From Alteromonas sp. CI.11.F.A3 (GTDB lineage Bacteria; Pseudomonadota; Gammaproteobacteria; Enterobacterales; Alteromonadaceae), in the NCBI RefSeq assembly GCF_032925565.1, contig NZ_CP136708.1, positions 3,224,001-3,288,000 of the forward strand: DNA of 64,000 bases, written 5' to 3'. Positions 30,271-49,892 of this stretch are shown piece by piece (positions within the stretch are counted from its first letter, which is position 1; each line of letters starts with the position of its first letter). A program made the position numbers and the translations under genes. The notes below the pieces were generated by a model, which worked only from the letters and a program-made list of their open reading frames with translations, was not told the DNA's origin and did not search any database.

Positions 30271-30320
30271 TGGCAATGGCAATGGCAATGGCAATGGCAA
30301 TGGCAATGGCAATGGCAATG
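30271..30320. repeat. Hexanucleotide repeat (TGGCAA)8
   Basis: Eight perfect TGGCAA copies plus TG lie 221-270 bases upstream of the katE start. The unit is a multiple of three and sits outside coding DNA, so copy-number change would alter promoter spacing, not a reading frame. Confidence 0.97.
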
Positions 30321-43260: not shown

Positions 43261-43619
43261 ATAAAAGCACTCCTTAAAAACGGTAAACGGTATAGATTTC
43301 CCCGATGCGAGGGAATATAGGTTTTTAAGGGCGATAGATAAATGGGATACAGGTATAAACAGAATTCTGAAAATGAAGATAATAGTCAACCACAGTGGCT
43401 GATAAACCACTTGAACTTTACCCTGACTGACATCAGAAACCACTTTAAGGCATTACTTATGGAAGTATTTAACCAGTCTTTACATTTCCTCAATGGCGAG
43501 CGTTGAGAGTTTACTTTATGATCTTTACATTACTAGCATGACTGCTTTTTTCATCGATATTCAGTCAGCGAAGAACTGCTCGCATGACGAATTTTTTTAA
43601 GTGGGAAGGATCAACATCA
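43261..43619. other. Intergenic region between CmcJ-like gene and metal-type block
   Basis: This 359-base region contains the promoters of two divergent genes. AAGGAG for the CmcJ-like gene lies at its left end and GGAAGGA for the DUF6152-like gene at its right end. A longer in-frame extension of the CmcJ-like gene crosses it but has no signal or ribosome-site support. Nothing else seen. Confidence 0.55.
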
Positions 43620-45341
43620 ATGTGGAATCTACGATGCCTATGTGTACTTGTAGCGCTTATTATACCGAATGTGGCCTTTGCCCATCATGGAAGTAGTGGG
43701 CAATTTGAAACCAATAAAACGATTGAGTTGTCTGGCGAGATTACTCGGGTACGGTTAGTAAACCCGCATGCCTATGTGTATTTCGATGCTACGAACGACG
43801 ATGGCAGCGTGACTAATATGCGTTGTGAACTGCAATCAGGCTCGTTACTTAAACGTAGAGGTTGGAACACCGAACAATTCAAAACAGGCAGTGCTATTAC
43901 CCTATTAGGCTCTCCAGATAGGAACGACCCAACTACCTGTTACATGCAACAAATTACTTTCGAAAATGGGATAACAGCCACCCGCAATAGTGTGTTTAAC
44001 GATGATGGCAGTTTGGTGGCCAGTGATGACGGTAACGCTTCATCACAAACTCAAAGTGAAATTGTTGAACAACGCTCTATTACTCGCACCGACGGTACGC
44101 CTAACATTGAAGGAAACTGGGCAATGGTGCGAAAAGTAGGCAGTAGACCGGGCGGTGGCGGCTCTTTCGCACAGTTAACCGCAGCCGGTGCTTTGGCGGT
44201 TGAAGGGGCAACGCAAGATGAAAACCCAAGATACCAATGTGAACCCACGAATATCATCATGGATTGGTGGTTTGATCTTATGGTTAATAAGATTGAGCAA
44301 TCAAGCAACCAAATAAACTTAACTTACGGCTTTATGAGCCTTGAGCGCACTATTTACCTAGATGGCACCGCAATGCCCGCAAATTACGAGGCTAATCGCG
44401 CAGGGTTTTCAACCGGTGTATGGGAAGGAAATACATTAGTGGTAACCACTACAGGGTTTGACGAAGGATGGTTGATGGCTCCCATGGGCGGCAACGCCCG
44501 CCCTCCTCGTCCTGAAGGCGCGCCTGATGGAAAAAGTGGCCCACCAGGAGGCCCAAGAGGCAATGGCGGGCCACCCTCACCGGCTAAAAATAGCAGTGAG
44601 CTCGTGATTGTAGAACGTTTCTCTCTAAACGAAGACGGCACGGTATTAAAACGCGAATATACCATTACCGATCCGCTTTATCTCAAAGCCCCCATGACAG
44701 GTTCAGATGAAGTGACCTTTACACAAGACAGCTATCAGCCTTATGACTGTGACGACCTTACTGCCGAACGAGGCTCAGGCAATCTTGATCCCAGCGCCAC
44801 AGCACCTGACAACAAAGCTACAGGTAATGATGTTTCAAAAAGAGACGTTTCAAAAAGCGGCAACGTAAACGGTCAATCTGTAATGAGCACCCTTTACAAG
44901 CTTGAAGATTCAAAGGTAGGTCAAACCATATCGAGTACACAGTGGGGCTACCCTATTGTGCTGTCCTTACACGCAATAGGCATGGCTACCATGGTCGGCA
45001 TTGCGCTTATGTTGACCCTTCGCGTGCTAGGCTTCGCTTCAGCCATTCCGGTTACCGCAATGGCAAGCTACTGGAATGTTGCTTTAACTGGGTTTGGCAT
45101 TAATTTAGTTTCAGGTGTGGCGCTATTTTGTGGAAACGCTTCAGAGCTTTATTTCAACTGGGCATTTCGCATTAAAATTCTATTGGTTATTGCTGGCCTT
45201 GTACTTACATGGCGGTTAGTCACCATTTGTATAAAACAAACTGACAAGGTGTCGACTAAGCACAAAAAGCTTGCTGCTATTGCCATGGTCAGTTGGGTGG
45301 CCGCAATTATTGCTGGCCGGTTAATCGGCTACATGTCTTAA
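43620..45341 (+). CDS. DUF6152-like/DUF6644-like fusion protein
   Basis: From ATG 43620 (GGAAGGA upstream) the protein has 573 residues. A signal peptide ends VAFA and the mature chain begins HHGSSGQFE. A DUF6152-like domain follows at about 22-120 (GEITRVRLVNPHAYVYFDA, SGSLLKRRGW, with two cysteines in MRCELQ and TTCYM). The middle has a lipocalin-like GNWAMV region and a proline/glycine-rich segment at about 285-325. The last 150 or so residues form four TM helices like DUF6644 proteins (YPIVLSLHAIGMATMVGIAL). I infer a periplasmic metal-related binding module joined to a membrane domain. It opens a five-gene same-strand block. Confidence 0.72.
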   Translation: MWNLRCLCVLVALIIPNVAFAHHGSSGQFETNKTIELSGEITRVRLVNPHAYVYFDATNDDGSVTNMRCELQSGSLLKRRGWNTEQFKTGSAITLLGSPDRNDPTTCYMQQITFENGITATRNSVFNDDGSLVASDDGNASSQTQSEIVEQRSITRTDGTPNIEGNWAMVRKVGSRPGGGGSFAQLTAAGALAVEGATQDENPRYQCEPTNIIMDWWFDLMVNKIEQSSNQINLTYGFMSLERTIYLDGTAMPANYEANRAGFSTGVWEGNTLVVTTTGFDEGWLMAPMGGNARPPRPEGAPDGKSGPPGGPRGNGGPPSPAKNSSELVIVERFSLNEDGTVLKREYTITDPLYLKAPMTGSDEVTFTQDSYQPYDCDDLTAERGSGNLDPSATAPDNKATGNDVSKRDVSKSGNVNGQSVMSTLYKLEDSKVGQTISSTQWGYPIVLSLHAIGMATMVGIALMLTLRVLGFASAIPVTAMASYWNVALTGFGINLVSGVALFCGNASELYFNWAFRIKILLVIAGLVLTWRLVTICIKQTDKVSTKHKKLAAIAMVSWVAAIIAGRLIGYMS

Positions 45342-45352
45342 GGAGGTTACCT

Positions 45353-45871
45353 ATGAATTTATTACTTTCGTGGGTTATCGACACCCTTAATGCTAGCCCT
45401 ATCAGCGGTTTTGTTATGGACAATGCCGTCGTGTTCCCAGTTTTAGAAATGGCACACTTTTTAGGTTTGTGTTTACTTTTTGGTTCACTGCTTGTTGTTG
45501 ATTTGCGAATGGTGGGCTTTGCCAAGGCTGTGCCCATCAAGCAGGTAGACATATTTTTACGTTGGGCGTTAATCGGTTTCGCTATCAATGTGGTTTCGGG
45601 CTTGCTTTTTGTTATCGGTGACTCTGACAGATACCTTGTGAATATTGCATTTGGGGCCAAAATGGCCTGCATTTTATTGGCGGGCGTTAACACCTTGTAC
45701 TTTATAAAATGTATTAAACCGCAAATGGCCAGTATGCCCATGTCTGCTAGCGCGTTGAACACCCCAGCGCAACTAGGTAAAAATGCCTATGTGGTAGCCT
45801 GGTTATCACTGTTCTTGTGGACCAGCGTTATTATTTTAGGCCGCTTTATTCCTTATGTGGAAACGCCCTAA
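45353..45871 (+). CDS. DUF6644-like membrane protein
   Basis: The start ATG 45353 is fixed by a perfect AAGGAGG seven bases upstream; the longer frame from 45293 overlaps the preceding gene. The 172-residue protein has four TM helices and the pattern FPVLEMAHFLGLCLLFGSLLVVDLRMVGF, much like the C-terminal domain of the preceding fusion. The two may form a heterodimeric membrane unit. It ends one base before the next gene. Function unknown. Confidence 0.75.
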   Translation: MNLLLSWVIDTLNASPISGFVMDNAVVFPVLEMAHFLGLCLLFGSLLVVDLRMVGFAKAVPIKQVDIFLRWALIGFAINVVSGLLFVIGDSDRYLVNIAFGAKMACILLAGVNTLYFIKCIKPQMASMPMSASALNTPAQLGKNAYVVAWLSLFLWTSVIILGRFIPYVETP

Positions 45872-46588
45872 TTGGCTAGGTTGAAGTGTGCACCGGCTCT
45901 GTCAGCCTTTTCTTCAACCTTACTACCAGCCTTGCTTTTAGCTGGCCTCTTAGCTTGTCTGTTAGTGTCACCGGTGGCATTTGCCCATGGTGTAGCACAG
46001 CAAGATCAAGGCTTTATAGCCAATGCCTTCGGTGTTCACATTTGGCCCTTTATGTATTTGGGCGCCAAACATATGGTAACTGGATACGACCACCTGCTTT
46101 ATCTTGTGGGGGTCATTTTCTTCTTATCGAAATTTCGCGATATAGCCATATTTGTAAGCCTTTTTGCTTTAGGACACTCCATTACACTGTTGGTAGGTGT
46201 GCTGTCTGGTCTTCAGGTAAACCCCTATCTTATTGATGCCATTATTGGCATATCTATTTGTTATAAAGCACTGGAAAACCTTAGTAAATTTCACTTTTTA
46301 AACCCTAAGATAGCCGTGTTTGGTTTTGGGTTAGCTCATGGTTTTGGGCTTTCAAGTAAACTACAAGACTTAGCATTGTCAGCGAACGGACTTATACCTA
46401 ACATGCTGGCATTTAACTTGGGTGTCGAAATTGGCCAATTGTTGGCCCTTGTAATTCTGCTTAGTAGCTTATCCTGGTTACGTAAACAGCCCCACTACCC
46501 AGCTATTTCAAACACTGTGAATATAGGACTATTTGGTGCAGGGCTTATGTTTTTCGGCATGCACATTACCGGCTATTTGTTGCGCTGA
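45872..46588 (+). CDS. HupE/UreJ-family membrane protein
   Basis: Translation appears to start at TTG 45872, directly after the preceding stop. A hydrophobic signal ends PVAFA and is followed by HGVAQQ. The membrane part carries the family signature GAKHMVTGYDHLLYLVGVIFF, whose His residues and Asp are the proposed nickel site, as well as LGHSITLL and AHGFGLSSKL. The 238-residue length fits. HupE/UreJ proteins accompany hydrogenase or urease and are believed to import nickel or a related metal; neither enzyme is present here, so the metal is open. The tight packing suggests translational coupling. Confidence 0.85.
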   Translation: MARLKCAPALSAFSSTLLPALLLAGLLACLLVSPVAFAHGVAQQDQGFIANAFGVHIWPFMYLGAKHMVTGYDHLLYLVGVIFFLSKFRDIAIFVSLFALGHSITLLVGVLSGLQVNPYLIDAIIGISICYKALENLSKFHFLNPKIAVFGFGLAHGFGLSSKLQDLALSANGLIPNMLAFNLGVEIGQLLALVILLSSLSWLRKQPHYPAISNTVNIGLFGAGLMFFGMHITGYLLR

Positions 46589-47427: not shown

Positions 47428-47560
47428 ATAGTGCGTTTTAGGTTCTATGATCCTGCGCTTTGCCACAACAACCATGCTATTTTGCTAAGGTAAAGACTGG
47501 GTGCGTCAGTTTTTACCGCATCACTACATCATCCTTAATACTCTACTTCGGTTAGTTTAG

Positions 47561-48709
47561 GTGATGGTCATTTTGGAAAAAGACGCAACAAAAATAAATA
47601 TTCACGTAATAGGCGTGGGTGGCTGTGGTGGTAACGCTATTAGCAATATGTCTTCCGATTCGGGACACAGCAACATTAGGTTTAGCTCGATTAATACAGA
47701 TATTTCAGCGTTAAACCAGTGTCAGGGTTTTTCGCGTGCGCATTTACATGAACATTTACATGAGCATTCACGAGAGCACTCACAAAAGCATGAAGTAGTG
47801 TTGATTGGCGAGCACACTACCAAAGGTTTCGGTGCAGGCGCTAACCCTGAAGTAGCGAAACATGCCGCTGAACATAGTATAGAACTGTTAAAAACCCTGA
47901 TTGCCGACGATACCCTCATTATTGTTATAGCAGGGCTTGGTGGAGGTACCGGCAGCGGTGCTACTTCCGTGTTGTTAGATTTGGCAACAGAAATGGGAAT
48001 AGATGCCCTTTGCTTTGTTACCCTACCCTTCAAATCTGAAGGGGATAAACGCAAAGAGATAGCGTATCACGCTCTTGAAGAGATTAAGCGTAAAGCCAAC
48101 GCAACATTGGTGCTGTCAAACGACGCACTAATCACTGCGCTCGATGCAACCGTAGGTATTATTAGCGCCTTTCGGCACTGCGACACACAAATGCAGCGAA
48201 TTGTTGAATCCATCATTACCATGCTAACCAGCACGGGTTACATCAATGTAGATATCAACGATTTTAGCCACATTCTATCACTTGAAGGTGATACCGCCCT
48301 TGGCGTTGGCGTGGCTCAAAGTGATGAAACGCTTTGTGATGCATTAAGTCATGCTTTAAAAAATCCATTGGTGCAAACCAACCACATTAGGGGCACGCAA
48401 GGCGTGATAGTACAGCTAACTTGTCAACAAGAGCCCAGTATTTCAATGTATGAAAGTATGCTGGCTGAACTACAAACCTTGATAGAAAGCTCTCAAGCAT
48501 TAATTATTAGTGGCGTTACTATCAATGAAGCACTCCCCCACTGTGCTGAGGTATTTGTTATTGCGACAGGCATTCCACCCGATGAACAACGCGAACCTAC
48601 CTCTGAGAAGATAGTAGAGATGAAACGGCCAAGACTATCTCAACCCTATAATGGCAAGGGAGAATATCTAGATACTCCGACCTTCGTTAGGCTTAAAGGT
48701 AAAGGTTAG
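47561..48709 (+). CDS. Divergent FtsZ paralogue with His-rich insertion
   Basis: The 382-residue tubulin/FtsZ-fold GTPase keeps all core elements: VIGVGGCGGNAISNM at about 16-30, the tubulin signature GGGTGSG at 127-133, the T7 catalytic loop NVDIND at 229-234, and a C-terminal EYLDTPTFVR (368-377) that mirrors the FtsZ peptide DYLDIPAFLR that binds division proteins. The linker before it is very short. An insertion at 61-77 is built of HLHE/HSRE-type units and holds seven histidines. The true ftsZ would sit in the dcw cluster, absent here, so this is a second copy. ATG 47564 and TTG 47573 are alternative starts. It follows the HupE-type block by 133 bases. Confidence 0.85.
   Translation: MMVILEKDATKINIHVIGVGGCGGNAISNMSSDSGHSNIRFSSINTDISALNQCQGFSRAHLHEHLHEHSREHSQKHEVVLIGEHTTKGFGAGANPEVAKHAAEHSIELLKTLIADDTLIIVIAGLGGGTGSGATSVLLDLATEMGIDALCFVTLPFKSEGDKRKEIAYHALEEIKRKANATLVLSNDALITALDATVGIISAFRHCDTQMQRIVESIITMLTSTGYINVDINDFSHILSLEGDTALGVGVAQSDETLCDALSHALKNPLVQTNHIRGTQGVIVQLTCQQEPSISMYESMLAELQTLIESSQALIISGVTINEALPHCAEVFVIATGIPPDEQREPTSEKIVEMKRPRLSQPYNGKGEYLDTPTFVRLKGKG
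47741..47794 (+). repeat. 12-bp tandem units coding the His-rich insertion
   Basis: Four 12-bp units, CATTTACATGAA, CATTTACATGAG, CATTCACGAGAG and CACTCACAAAAG, then CATGAA, encode the repeats within the FtsZ-like protein. The first two differ by one base, which suggests recent duplication; the last two have diverged. Confidence 0.9.
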
Positions 48710-48816: not shown

Positions 48817-49824
48817 CTAATTACAGTAGGTCTGGTAAAGGCTTTCAGATAAGTCAGCAAAATATTTTCGAAGTGTTAAGGGGGCTACAACTTCAATATT
48901 ACTCCCTAGTCCTCTTAAAAACGCGCGAAGTTTACTATCATCGGTCACCGTTGCCATCAACATCGATTTTCCAGCAATCGTTGAGCTAAAAATAGCCTGA
49001 TCTTCAGCCAGCTTGTAGCCGTGTAATAAGAAAAAAGCACTGTCGTTGATAAGCAGCTTCAATTTCACCTTTTCAGGCGTTGATACTAGTTCAGCAGATG
49101 AGTTTTTCTGGAAGTCATTGCTTTGCTGGCAATCATTGTCTGTTACTTCGACATTTCGAATAAAGTTTATAGGTAGGGAATAGCGCCTAGTATGCAAAGA
49201 TCCAAACGTACAAATGAAAATCAAACGACCATTTTGCTGAATTAACCCCATAGGGTTAACCTTGTCATAGTGCTTCCACACCGCTTGCTTTGCACGTTTA
49301 AAAAGACGTTTTATATCGGCATTTACCTGCTTTTTATAAAACAAAGCGGTTTTTAAACGCGCTAACGTAACCGGGTCGATATCTGGTGGCACTAAAGGTT
49401 GTGACACTTGCACGTTACTCACCGACTTTGACCAATGCTGCAAAAGCGAGTCGTTATCATGGGCTAATATTTGCTCAGCCTTATTGAAGTAAGGCTGTAG
49501 CTCTTTCAGTGTTGTATTCGGAAGGGTTTCACTAGATTGCTCCAATACATTGAACGCAAGGGCGGTGTTACCGTCCATCAAGCTTAAGTTCAATTTCTTG
49601 AAACACGCATTAATATTCCAGCCAAAGGGCTTCGAACGTTTATCGACTTCTAGCCCGAATAAGCCTATCTGCTCAAGACTTTTTAAATCTCGCTGCACCG
49701 TGCGCATATCTATATTCGCATGACCACTGTTTTGCAGGTTGTCCAGAATCTGTCGGCTAGACACCTTACGAGGTGCGCGGGGTATAAATTGTAGAATGTC
49801 TAATTTTCGCTGGAATGCACTCAC
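48817..49824 (-). CDS. WYL-domain transcriptional regulator
   Basis: The 335-residue protein has an N-terminal winged helix-turn-helix of the DeoR/YafY type (QRKLDILQFIPRAPRKVSSRQIL, then MRTVQRDLKSLEQIGLFG). A WYL-type ligand domain lies at about residues 175-260 (VNPMGLIQQNGRLIFICTFG), and the C-terminal WCX-like extension ends with LRGLGSNIEVVAPLTLRKYF. WYL regulators respond to nucleotides or DNA damage signals. A perfect inverted repeat lies 42 bases upstream of the start and is a likely operator. Confidence 0.88.
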   Translation of the reverse strand: MSAFQRKLDILQFIPRAPRKVSSRQILDNLQNSGHANIDMRTVQRDLKSLEQIGLFGLEVDKRSKPFGWNINACFKKLNLSLMDGNTALAFNVLEQSSETLPNTTLKELQPYFNKAEQILAHDNDSLLQHWSKSVSNVQVSQPLVPPDIDPVTLARLKTALFYKKQVNADIKRLFKRAKQAVWKHYDKVNPMGLIQQNGRLIFICTFGSLHTRRYSLPINFIRNVEVTDNDCQQSNDFQKNSSAELVSTPEKVKLKLLINDSAFFLLHGYKLAEDQAIFSSTIAGKSMLMATVTDDSKLRAFLRGLGSNIEVVAPLTLRKYFADLSESLYQTYCN

Positions 49825-49865: not shown

Positions 49866-49892
49866 TTGCTGCGACAAAAAGTGTCGCAGCAA
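49866..49892. promoter_or_regulatory. Perfect 11-bp inverted repeat, probable WYL operator
   Basis: TTGCTGCGACA and TGTCGCAGCAA are separated by AAAAG. The repeat lies between the WYL gene and the divergent CotH gene. No T run follows, so it is not a terminator. Dimeric binding by the WYL regulator is the simplest explanation. Confidence 0.65.

Follow-up and report, generated by a model that had tools for sequence, protein, structure and literature searches.

Introduction

In Caulobacter, single-stranded DNA (ssDNA) activates the WYL-type transcription regulator DriD, which in turn induces the division inhibitor DidA independently of the SOS response (PMC4211646; PMC12340889). DidA likely acts on FtsN and leaves FtsZ rings undisturbed, and DriD has further targets (PMC4211646; PMC12340889). 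The DriD operator, ATACGAC(N7)GTCGTAT, overlaps the -35 region of the promoter and lies at a fixed distance from the -10 element (PMC12340889; PMC4211646). Among related regulators, PafBC works through a promoter motif at -26, below -35 (PMC11804915), BrxR relies on inverted repeats (PMC9122601) and CapW is a repressor with its site over the -10 element (PMC9122588). In this study, we analysed a stretch of 64,000 nucleotides from Alteromonas sp. CI.11.F.A3 (contig NZ_CP136708.1, positions 3,224,001 to 3,288,000 of the forward strand), hereafter called the window, which carries a second gene of the FtsZ family, ftsZ2, next to a gene for a WYL-type regulator.

A second FtsZ per genome is reportedly also present in magnetotactic bacteria (FtsZm) and in Agrobacterium (extra FtsZ), both outside the present comparison. 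We know of no WYL partner for either protein, and both lie outside the tree described below. Extra ftsZ copies located outside the division cluster occur in a few bacteria and may be subfunctionalised (PMC9871819); the text on extra copies in this source makes no mention of the FtsZ2/WYL family, and no FtsZ-WYL pair was found in the papers searched. Here we present evidence that ftsZ2 and the WYL gene could form a self-contained, ssDNA-triggered division-control module with a modified FtsZ as effector, a reading to which we assign a probability of about 0.5.

Results

The ftsZ2 gene and its protein

47561..48709, plus strand: ftsZ2, second FtsZ-family gene, 382 amino acids (aa); open reading frame intact, assigned by Pfam, alignment, tree and fold
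47624..47626, plus strand: codon for Cys22 of the T1 nucleotide loop; all 52 clade paralogues have Cys here, the canonical side Gly except in L086
48662..48691, plus strand: codons of the division peptide EYLDTPTFVR, a tail of the FtsA/ZipA-binding type; alignment
48817..49824, minus strand: WYL-type transcription regulator, 335 aa, convergent with ftsZ2; weak domain traces, PADLOC, fold and neighbourhood

The ftsZ2 gene starts with GTG followed by an ATG codon, and its product scores 113.4 bits for the Pfam family Tubulin (cut-off 33) and 45.1 bits for FtsZ_C (cut-off 27). The protein carries GGGTGSG at residues 127-133, NVDIND at 229-234 and EYLDTPTFVR at 368-377. These motifs serve in GTP binding, in completion of the active site in the neighbouring subunit (T7 loop) and in contact with FtsA/ZipA (tail), respectively. 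Its linker comprises 29 aa; among 39 canonical copies the median length is 58. The genome, which consists of one contig, harbors two tubulin-domain genes, the canonical ftsZ at C1:1294918 and ftsZ2 at 3271561, about 2 Mb apart. A first-pass annotation of the window, made from the sequence alone, had named the GTP signature, the T7 loop NxDxxD, the FtsZ-type tail, the reduced linker and a position outside the division cluster, all of which were recovered here.

The predicted structure of FtsZ2 is an FtsZ fold (predicted local distance difference test, pLDDT, 73.9; predicted template modelling score, pTM, 0.72) with 7ohk as the best structural match (E 6.0e-33). FtsZ2 and the canonical FtsZ of its own genome are 28% identical over 356 aligned positions. 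The score for the FtsZ equivalog TIGR00065 is 228.9 bits and stays below the cut-off of 295.2; therefore, FtsZ2 is not classed as an FtsZ orthologue. In sequence matches to the PDB, bacterial and archaeal FtsZ ranked far above entries such as 4b45, 3zid and 7evh, and CetZ, TubZ and FtsZl are outside the tree. Judged from sequence, FtsZ2 represents an FtsZ whose GTP-site motifs are intact and whose tail is of the FtsA/ZipA type; the linker across the family is mostly short. It resembles canonical FtsZ (TIGR00065) in both Pfam domains, GTP signature, T7 loop, tail and fold, but differs in its score under the equivalog cut-off, the Cys in place of Gly in the T1 loop, the often short linker, the distant locus and its absence from most relatives.

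Distribution and selection of the paralogue

A second FtsZ was detected in 13 of 59 Alteromonas genomes. At family level, 24 of 295 genomes from 9 of 52 genus codes gave a match of at least 207 bits, and the next match (163 bits) is canonical by tree. At order level, at least 25 of 394 genomes from seven family codes (f1, f2, f6, f16, f20, f21, f25) carry the paralogue. These include 23 above 318.4 bits, the score of the best hit with a canonical T1 loop, G495, which scores lower, has the T1 Cys and lies in the clade, and G379, which fell inside the clade in a second tree; the copy of another carrier, G442, is broken. In the tree, 52 paralogues form one clade (support 100/100) apart from 12 canonical rows (99/97), and FtsZ2 does not group with the canonical FtsZ of its own order, with a warning of the program about long branches.

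The clade set consists of proteins of 340-480 aa core length and was scored with a permissive tail pattern; the copies with internal stops or fragments (first copy of G325, G065, G442, L116) and the tail-less proteins of G219 and G379 were left out. All 52 clade proteins retain GGGTG[ST]G, NxDxxD and the tail core. When the two tail-less proteins, which a later tree placed inside the clade, are added, the tail core is found in 52 of 54 and the final Arg in 51. The linker spans 15-77 aa (median 32.5) in the clade and 54-72 aa (median 58) in the 39 canonical proteins. The latter, mostly from Alteromonas, were chosen by GVGGGG in the T1 loop, so that Gly in 39 of 39 is given by selection. Without preset classes, residue 22 is Cys in 51 of the 52 proteins above 318.4 bits, the remaining one being a fragment without the loop; at or below this score (n = 44) there are 40 Gly, two Cys (L172, which is in the clade, and L086) and two proteins without such a loop. 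Since L086, from genome G100, is placed with canonical FtsZ, the T1 Cys alone does not define the clade. Many further positions that are invariant in canonical FtsZ are altered in the paralogues. The ratio of nonsynonymous to synonymous substitution rates (dN/dS) was 0.07-0.17 for FtsZ2 and 0.03-0.07 for the regulator in six pairwise comparisons, and FtsZ2 is under purifying selection.

Several apparent sources or relatives of ftsZ2 were rejected. Two FtsZ in nearly all f21 genomes proved to be an artefact, as the second match is a C-terminal piece of the same gene in G380, G399, G504, G611 and G431; G431 has a true second ftsZ besides this piece, and G541 has the C-terminal piece and a 53-bit fragment. 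For a phage origin, the 24 phage records matched were all below 60% identity, and one listed record is a 290-kb bacterial contig. For an origin from viral contigs, one of 102 candidate stretches encodes a relative, at 31% identity, and for a plasmid origin the best of 115 plasmid records are Pseudoalteromonas large replicons.

Other FtsZ-type genes were observed along the way. In one Alteromonas genome, G030, a third FtsZ-type protein of 564 aa (L053:6156-7850) adjoins a DUF6161 protein, and Alteromonas genome G014 contains a 71-aa FtsZ remnant (L054:7469-7681). The clade member of G431 (L181) is located without a WYL gene in a gene row with domains of the TOTE conflict system and ankyrin repeats. 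In G379 (L281), the tail-less FtsZ2 is followed by a Sir2-like protein, labelled so by reading its sequence, without a search.

Pairing with a WYL-type regulator

In an all-against-all gene comparison of 34 loci and two others, the gene at 48817-49824 (minus strand) was the single recurrent neighbour of ftsZ2. Its product shows weak helix-turn-helix (HTH) and WCX traces in Pfam (WCX 18.4, cut-off 23.9) and a WYL match in PADLOC, and does not reach the Pfam WYL family PF13280. A distant partner in G219 matches PF13280 with 47.3 bits, and the partners in Pseudoalteromonas are annotated as WYL. The 13 of 59 Alteromonas genomes with ftsZ2, and no others, have a close relative of the regulator (at least 64% identity and at least 481 bits), adjacent to ftsZ2 in 13 of 13; in the 46 genomes without ftsZ2, the best WYL protein reaches 102 bits. 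The 13 pairs occupy at least three gene neighbourhoods (L010 and L005 have neighbours in common), and in G018, which lacks an intact pair, the same site contains decayed remnants of the two genes.

The pairing extends beyond the genus. Both genes occur together in f6, f25 and f16 (broken copies) and near one another in f20; in three large-replicon regions of Pseudoalteromonas, the records annotate a WYL protein adjoining FtsZ, and in G296, where the contig starts within the ftsZ2 tail, the regulator adjoins as well. Outside Alteromonas the two genes converge or run in one direction with the regulator in front; in one case (L200), ftsZ comes first and overlaps. The protein distances of FtsZ2 and regulator are correlated over 31 pairs (r 0.92, 0 of 2000 permutations), a value that ignores shared descent. 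Moreover, both genes of one pair in G325 (g38) are nearest, among the 31, to the pair of G310 (g8), which suggests, as far as sequence distances can tell, a joint transfer of both genes. The regulator model has a winged HTH-WYL-WCX fold, and the best Foldseek match is DriD (E 3.9e-12), with PafBC, CapW and BrxR close behind.

A common operator before both genes

47502..47520, plus strand: operator copy before ftsZ2, TGCGTCAGTTTTTACCGCA, with 3 mismatches to the operator of the WYL gene; upstream alignment
47530..47535, plus strand: -10-like hexamer CATCCT of ftsZ2, 10 nt past the operator core
49870..49888, minus strand: operator before the WYL gene, TGCGACACTTTTTGTCGCA, the sole perfect match in the 4.66-Mb genome
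49855..49860, minus strand: -10-like hexamer TACGAT of the WYL gene, 10 nt past the operator core

Both genes are preceded by an operator of the form GCGACA-N5-TGTCGC. Aligned upstream regions of 13 Alteromonas loci contain TGCGACA-N5-TGTCGCA before the regulator, and those of 14 Alteromonas-type loci contain a related, less perfect site before ftsZ2. Allowing up to 3 mismatches, the pattern occurs twice in the window, once per gene (0.10 expected; two sites in 0 of 100 shuffles). In the whole genome the site of the regulator alone is perfect, and weaker matches do not exceed the control. Among 55 loci with the paralogue (L201 being outside the clade), the operator precedes ftsZ2 in 33 of the 39 with a WYL gene versus 2 of the 16 without (Fisher 7.9e-7, the loci not being independent). 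Shuffled-arm controls gave a mean of 1.1, and 33 was reached in 0 of 295 trials. Of the six loci that have a WYL gene but no such site before ftsZ2, five have the regulator as the first gene of the pair and the operator in front of that gene, and in the sixth (L007) it lies further upstream; in L105, one of the two operator-bearing loci without an adjacent WYL gene, the regulator is 14 kb away.

A TANNNT element follows 10 nt past the operator in 31 of 32 regulator promoters and 20 of 35 ftsZ2 promoters (33 of 35 as YANNNT). In its core, CGAC-N7-GTCG, in its overlap with the -35 region and in its fixed distance to -10, the operator matches the DriD type; the copy before ftsZ2 in the window deviates from this core (CGTC-N7-ACCG). 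Neither operator site is overlapped by a sigma-70 consensus pair, and no LexA-like box (at most one mismatch to the consensus) was found upstream of ftsZ2 or the WYL gene.

A promoter-only search of the 394 genomes recovered 36 sites in 35 genomes, compared with 3 control sites. Of 30 such loci that were read, 24 sites precede a WYL gene (three in genomes used to derive the pattern), and 20 of these belong to genus code g85, in which the order search found no second FtsZ. Operator and fixed -10 spacing are therefore sharp enough to find such switches from the promoter alone. In the g85 loci (L249-L268, 20 genomes) and in L208, an Aeromonas caviae record, the WYL gene is preceded by the same operator at the same distance from -10; ftsZ2 was not found in the three regions examined (L279, L280, L208), and a regulator of the g85/L208 type may have another target. 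Two further sites stand apart. In G134 (L282), the operator precedes a Sir2-like protein (again labelled by reading the sequence, without a search), followed by a distant WYL gene. As a single case, in G083 (L283 near 6336) a perfect operator with TANNNT lies 49 nt upstream of a frame of 1154 aa, which we take to resemble recC; this arrangement would then fit a DNA-damage regulator.

The histidine-rich insertion and its surroundings

47740..47791, plus strand: 12-bp tandem repeat encoding the His-rich insertion, 4.3 copies with 77% matches; in 4 of 31 aligned copies

Alignment to other Alteromonas copies delimits a His-rich insertion of 20 residues with six His. The first-pass annotation was right about the His-rich stretch and its 12-bp tandem repeats, and erred in its size and count (17 residues, seven His), as the seventh His, just past the insertion, aligns with a His common to the other ten Alteromonas-type copies. 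Only close relatives within Alteromonas have the insertion (4 of the 31 aligned paralogues), and these four differ by 4-residue units; even at 99% identity, one protein carries 16 inserted residues where the window's FtsZ2 has 20, in keeping with the young age proposed for the repeats. In the model, the loop (residues 57-74) has a pLDDT below 50 and connects helix 48-52 with strand 77-81. It is a recent, lineage-specific loop expansion with little functional information. Upstream of ftsZ2, genes for DUF6152, DUF6644 and HupE/UreJ (window 43584-46588) accompany the four closest copies and not the paralogues generally; one such cluster is also found in L101.

Elsewhere in the window, a perfect TGGCAA hexanucleotide repeat (30271-30320; 8.3 copies, 100% matches) is a possible slippage site. 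The only listed frame of at least 60 aa over it is a 93-aa minus-strand open reading frame with a His-Cys repeat.

Discussion

The clue to the function of ftsZ2 lies in the neighbouring WYL regulator and the common operator, neither of which was mentioned in the first-pass annotation; its suggestion of a division-modulating tubulin is kept and gains support, with the effect on division itself still conjectural. We propose that ftsZ2 and the WYL gene are gained and lost as a unit, probably with horizontal movement between lineages. ssDNA, arising from damage or phage replication, would bind the DriD-like WYL protein, which would then occupy GCGACA-N5-TGTCGC over the -35 region, with a weak -10 element 10 nt downstream, and switch on itself and ftsZ2 independently of LexA. 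The resulting FtsZ2 would join or compete with the Z ring, and constriction would be paused or reshaped until the DNA is safe. We infer an ssDNA-dependent activator of both genes because operator core and fold class are those of DriD and the place on the promoter is similar, whereas CapW covers the -10 element. Linker-less FtsZ is dominantly lethal when produced in Caulobacter (PMC6994171), and therefore induced production of an FtsZ with a short linker could hold up constriction.

The locus shares with DriD-DidA the WYL-type regulator, CGAC-N7-GTCG over -35 at a fixed distance from -10 and a division protein as target. It differs in its target, a paralogue of FtsZ encoded in a unit of two genes, and no sequence match between the regulator and DriD was found. 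PafBC, the mycobacterial ssDNA-activated WYL regulator, also matches in fold but is a heterodimer over a whole regulon, and BrxR and CapW, likewise matching in fold, repress defence genes, with the CapW site over -10 instead of -35. Tentatively, and with slightly less than even odds, we extend the proposal to a mobile, LexA-independent DNA-damage checkpoint of gammaproteobacteria, in which an ssDNA-activated WYL switch would flood the Z ring with short-linker, Cys-loop FtsZ2, so that the effector would be no small inhibitor. The T1 Cys as a redox switch was considered only as an idea.

Some observations weigh against an ssDNA-triggered division module. VIA-align placed CapW and BrxR level with DriD; the regulator model has a pTM of 0.31 with poorly packed domains; and neither the regulator sequence nor a WYL profile run against PDB sequences matched DriD or the solved WYL proteins. 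Defence-type neighbours in some loci also leave room for an anti-phage role, in which a BrxR/CapW-type regulator would sense infection and FtsZ2 would halt the division of infected cells or act as a decoy for phage anti-FtsZ proteins. Besides the tied fold matches, genes of the McrC family, DUF262 and HipA by some copies and the TOTE conflict operon round one copy fit such a role. However, in seven genes neighbouring the pair in the window, Pfam detected no restriction or defence domain apart from a ParD-like antitoxin (PADLOC was applied to FtsZ2 and the WYL protein only), the search of viral contigs yielded the single 31% relative in 102 stretches, and the operator lies over -35 while CapW sites overlap -10, so that we consider an anti-phage module rather unlikely. 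An induced FtsZ2 might also serve as a spare that sustains or relocates division when the Z ring is impaired, with no arrest. The motifs kept in 52 of 52 clade members and the purifying selection would suit a spare, but T1 loop, linker and many canonical-invariant positions are altered, and the gene is missing in 46 of 59 genus genomes and most of the 295 family genomes; we regard this as an unlikely explanation, if one to be kept in view. We infer, rather than observe, the choice among a pause, a replacement and an arrest of infected cells.

The remaining explanations carry very little weight. Internal stops in the copies of two relatives and the decayed remnants in another genome would be expected of a neutral or decaying ftsZ duplicate, which is nonetheless highly improbable in view of a dN/dS of 0.07-0.17, the conserved motifs and the co-occurring regulator and operator. 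Nor is the gene a recent pseudogene copy, being 28% identical to its own FtsZ, or confined to one genome, as it is found in genus, family and order genomes. The metal-responsive tubulin suggested in the first-pass annotation could draw on the six His inside the insertion, the one adjoining it and the HupE/UreJ-type gene upstream. The distribution of the insertion (4 of 31 paralogues), its variable length and its place in a low-confidence, disordered loop give this no support, and the HupE-type cluster is found in 5 of the 36 loci compared, so that a metal role is scarcely credible. SulA (PF03846) was matched in one of 59 Alteromonas genomes, with E. coli as positive control; SulA loss was rejected as an explanation of ftsZ2, since with 58 of 59 genomes lacking a match there is no contrast.

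If an ssDNA-triggered division module is indeed encoded here, second bacterial FtsZ genes would gain a definite mode of regulation and a role open to experiment, and DriD-type control would extend to a target of the tubulin family. Furthermore, Alteromonas, a genus with a SulA family match in a single one of 59 genomes, would possess a division checkpoint.
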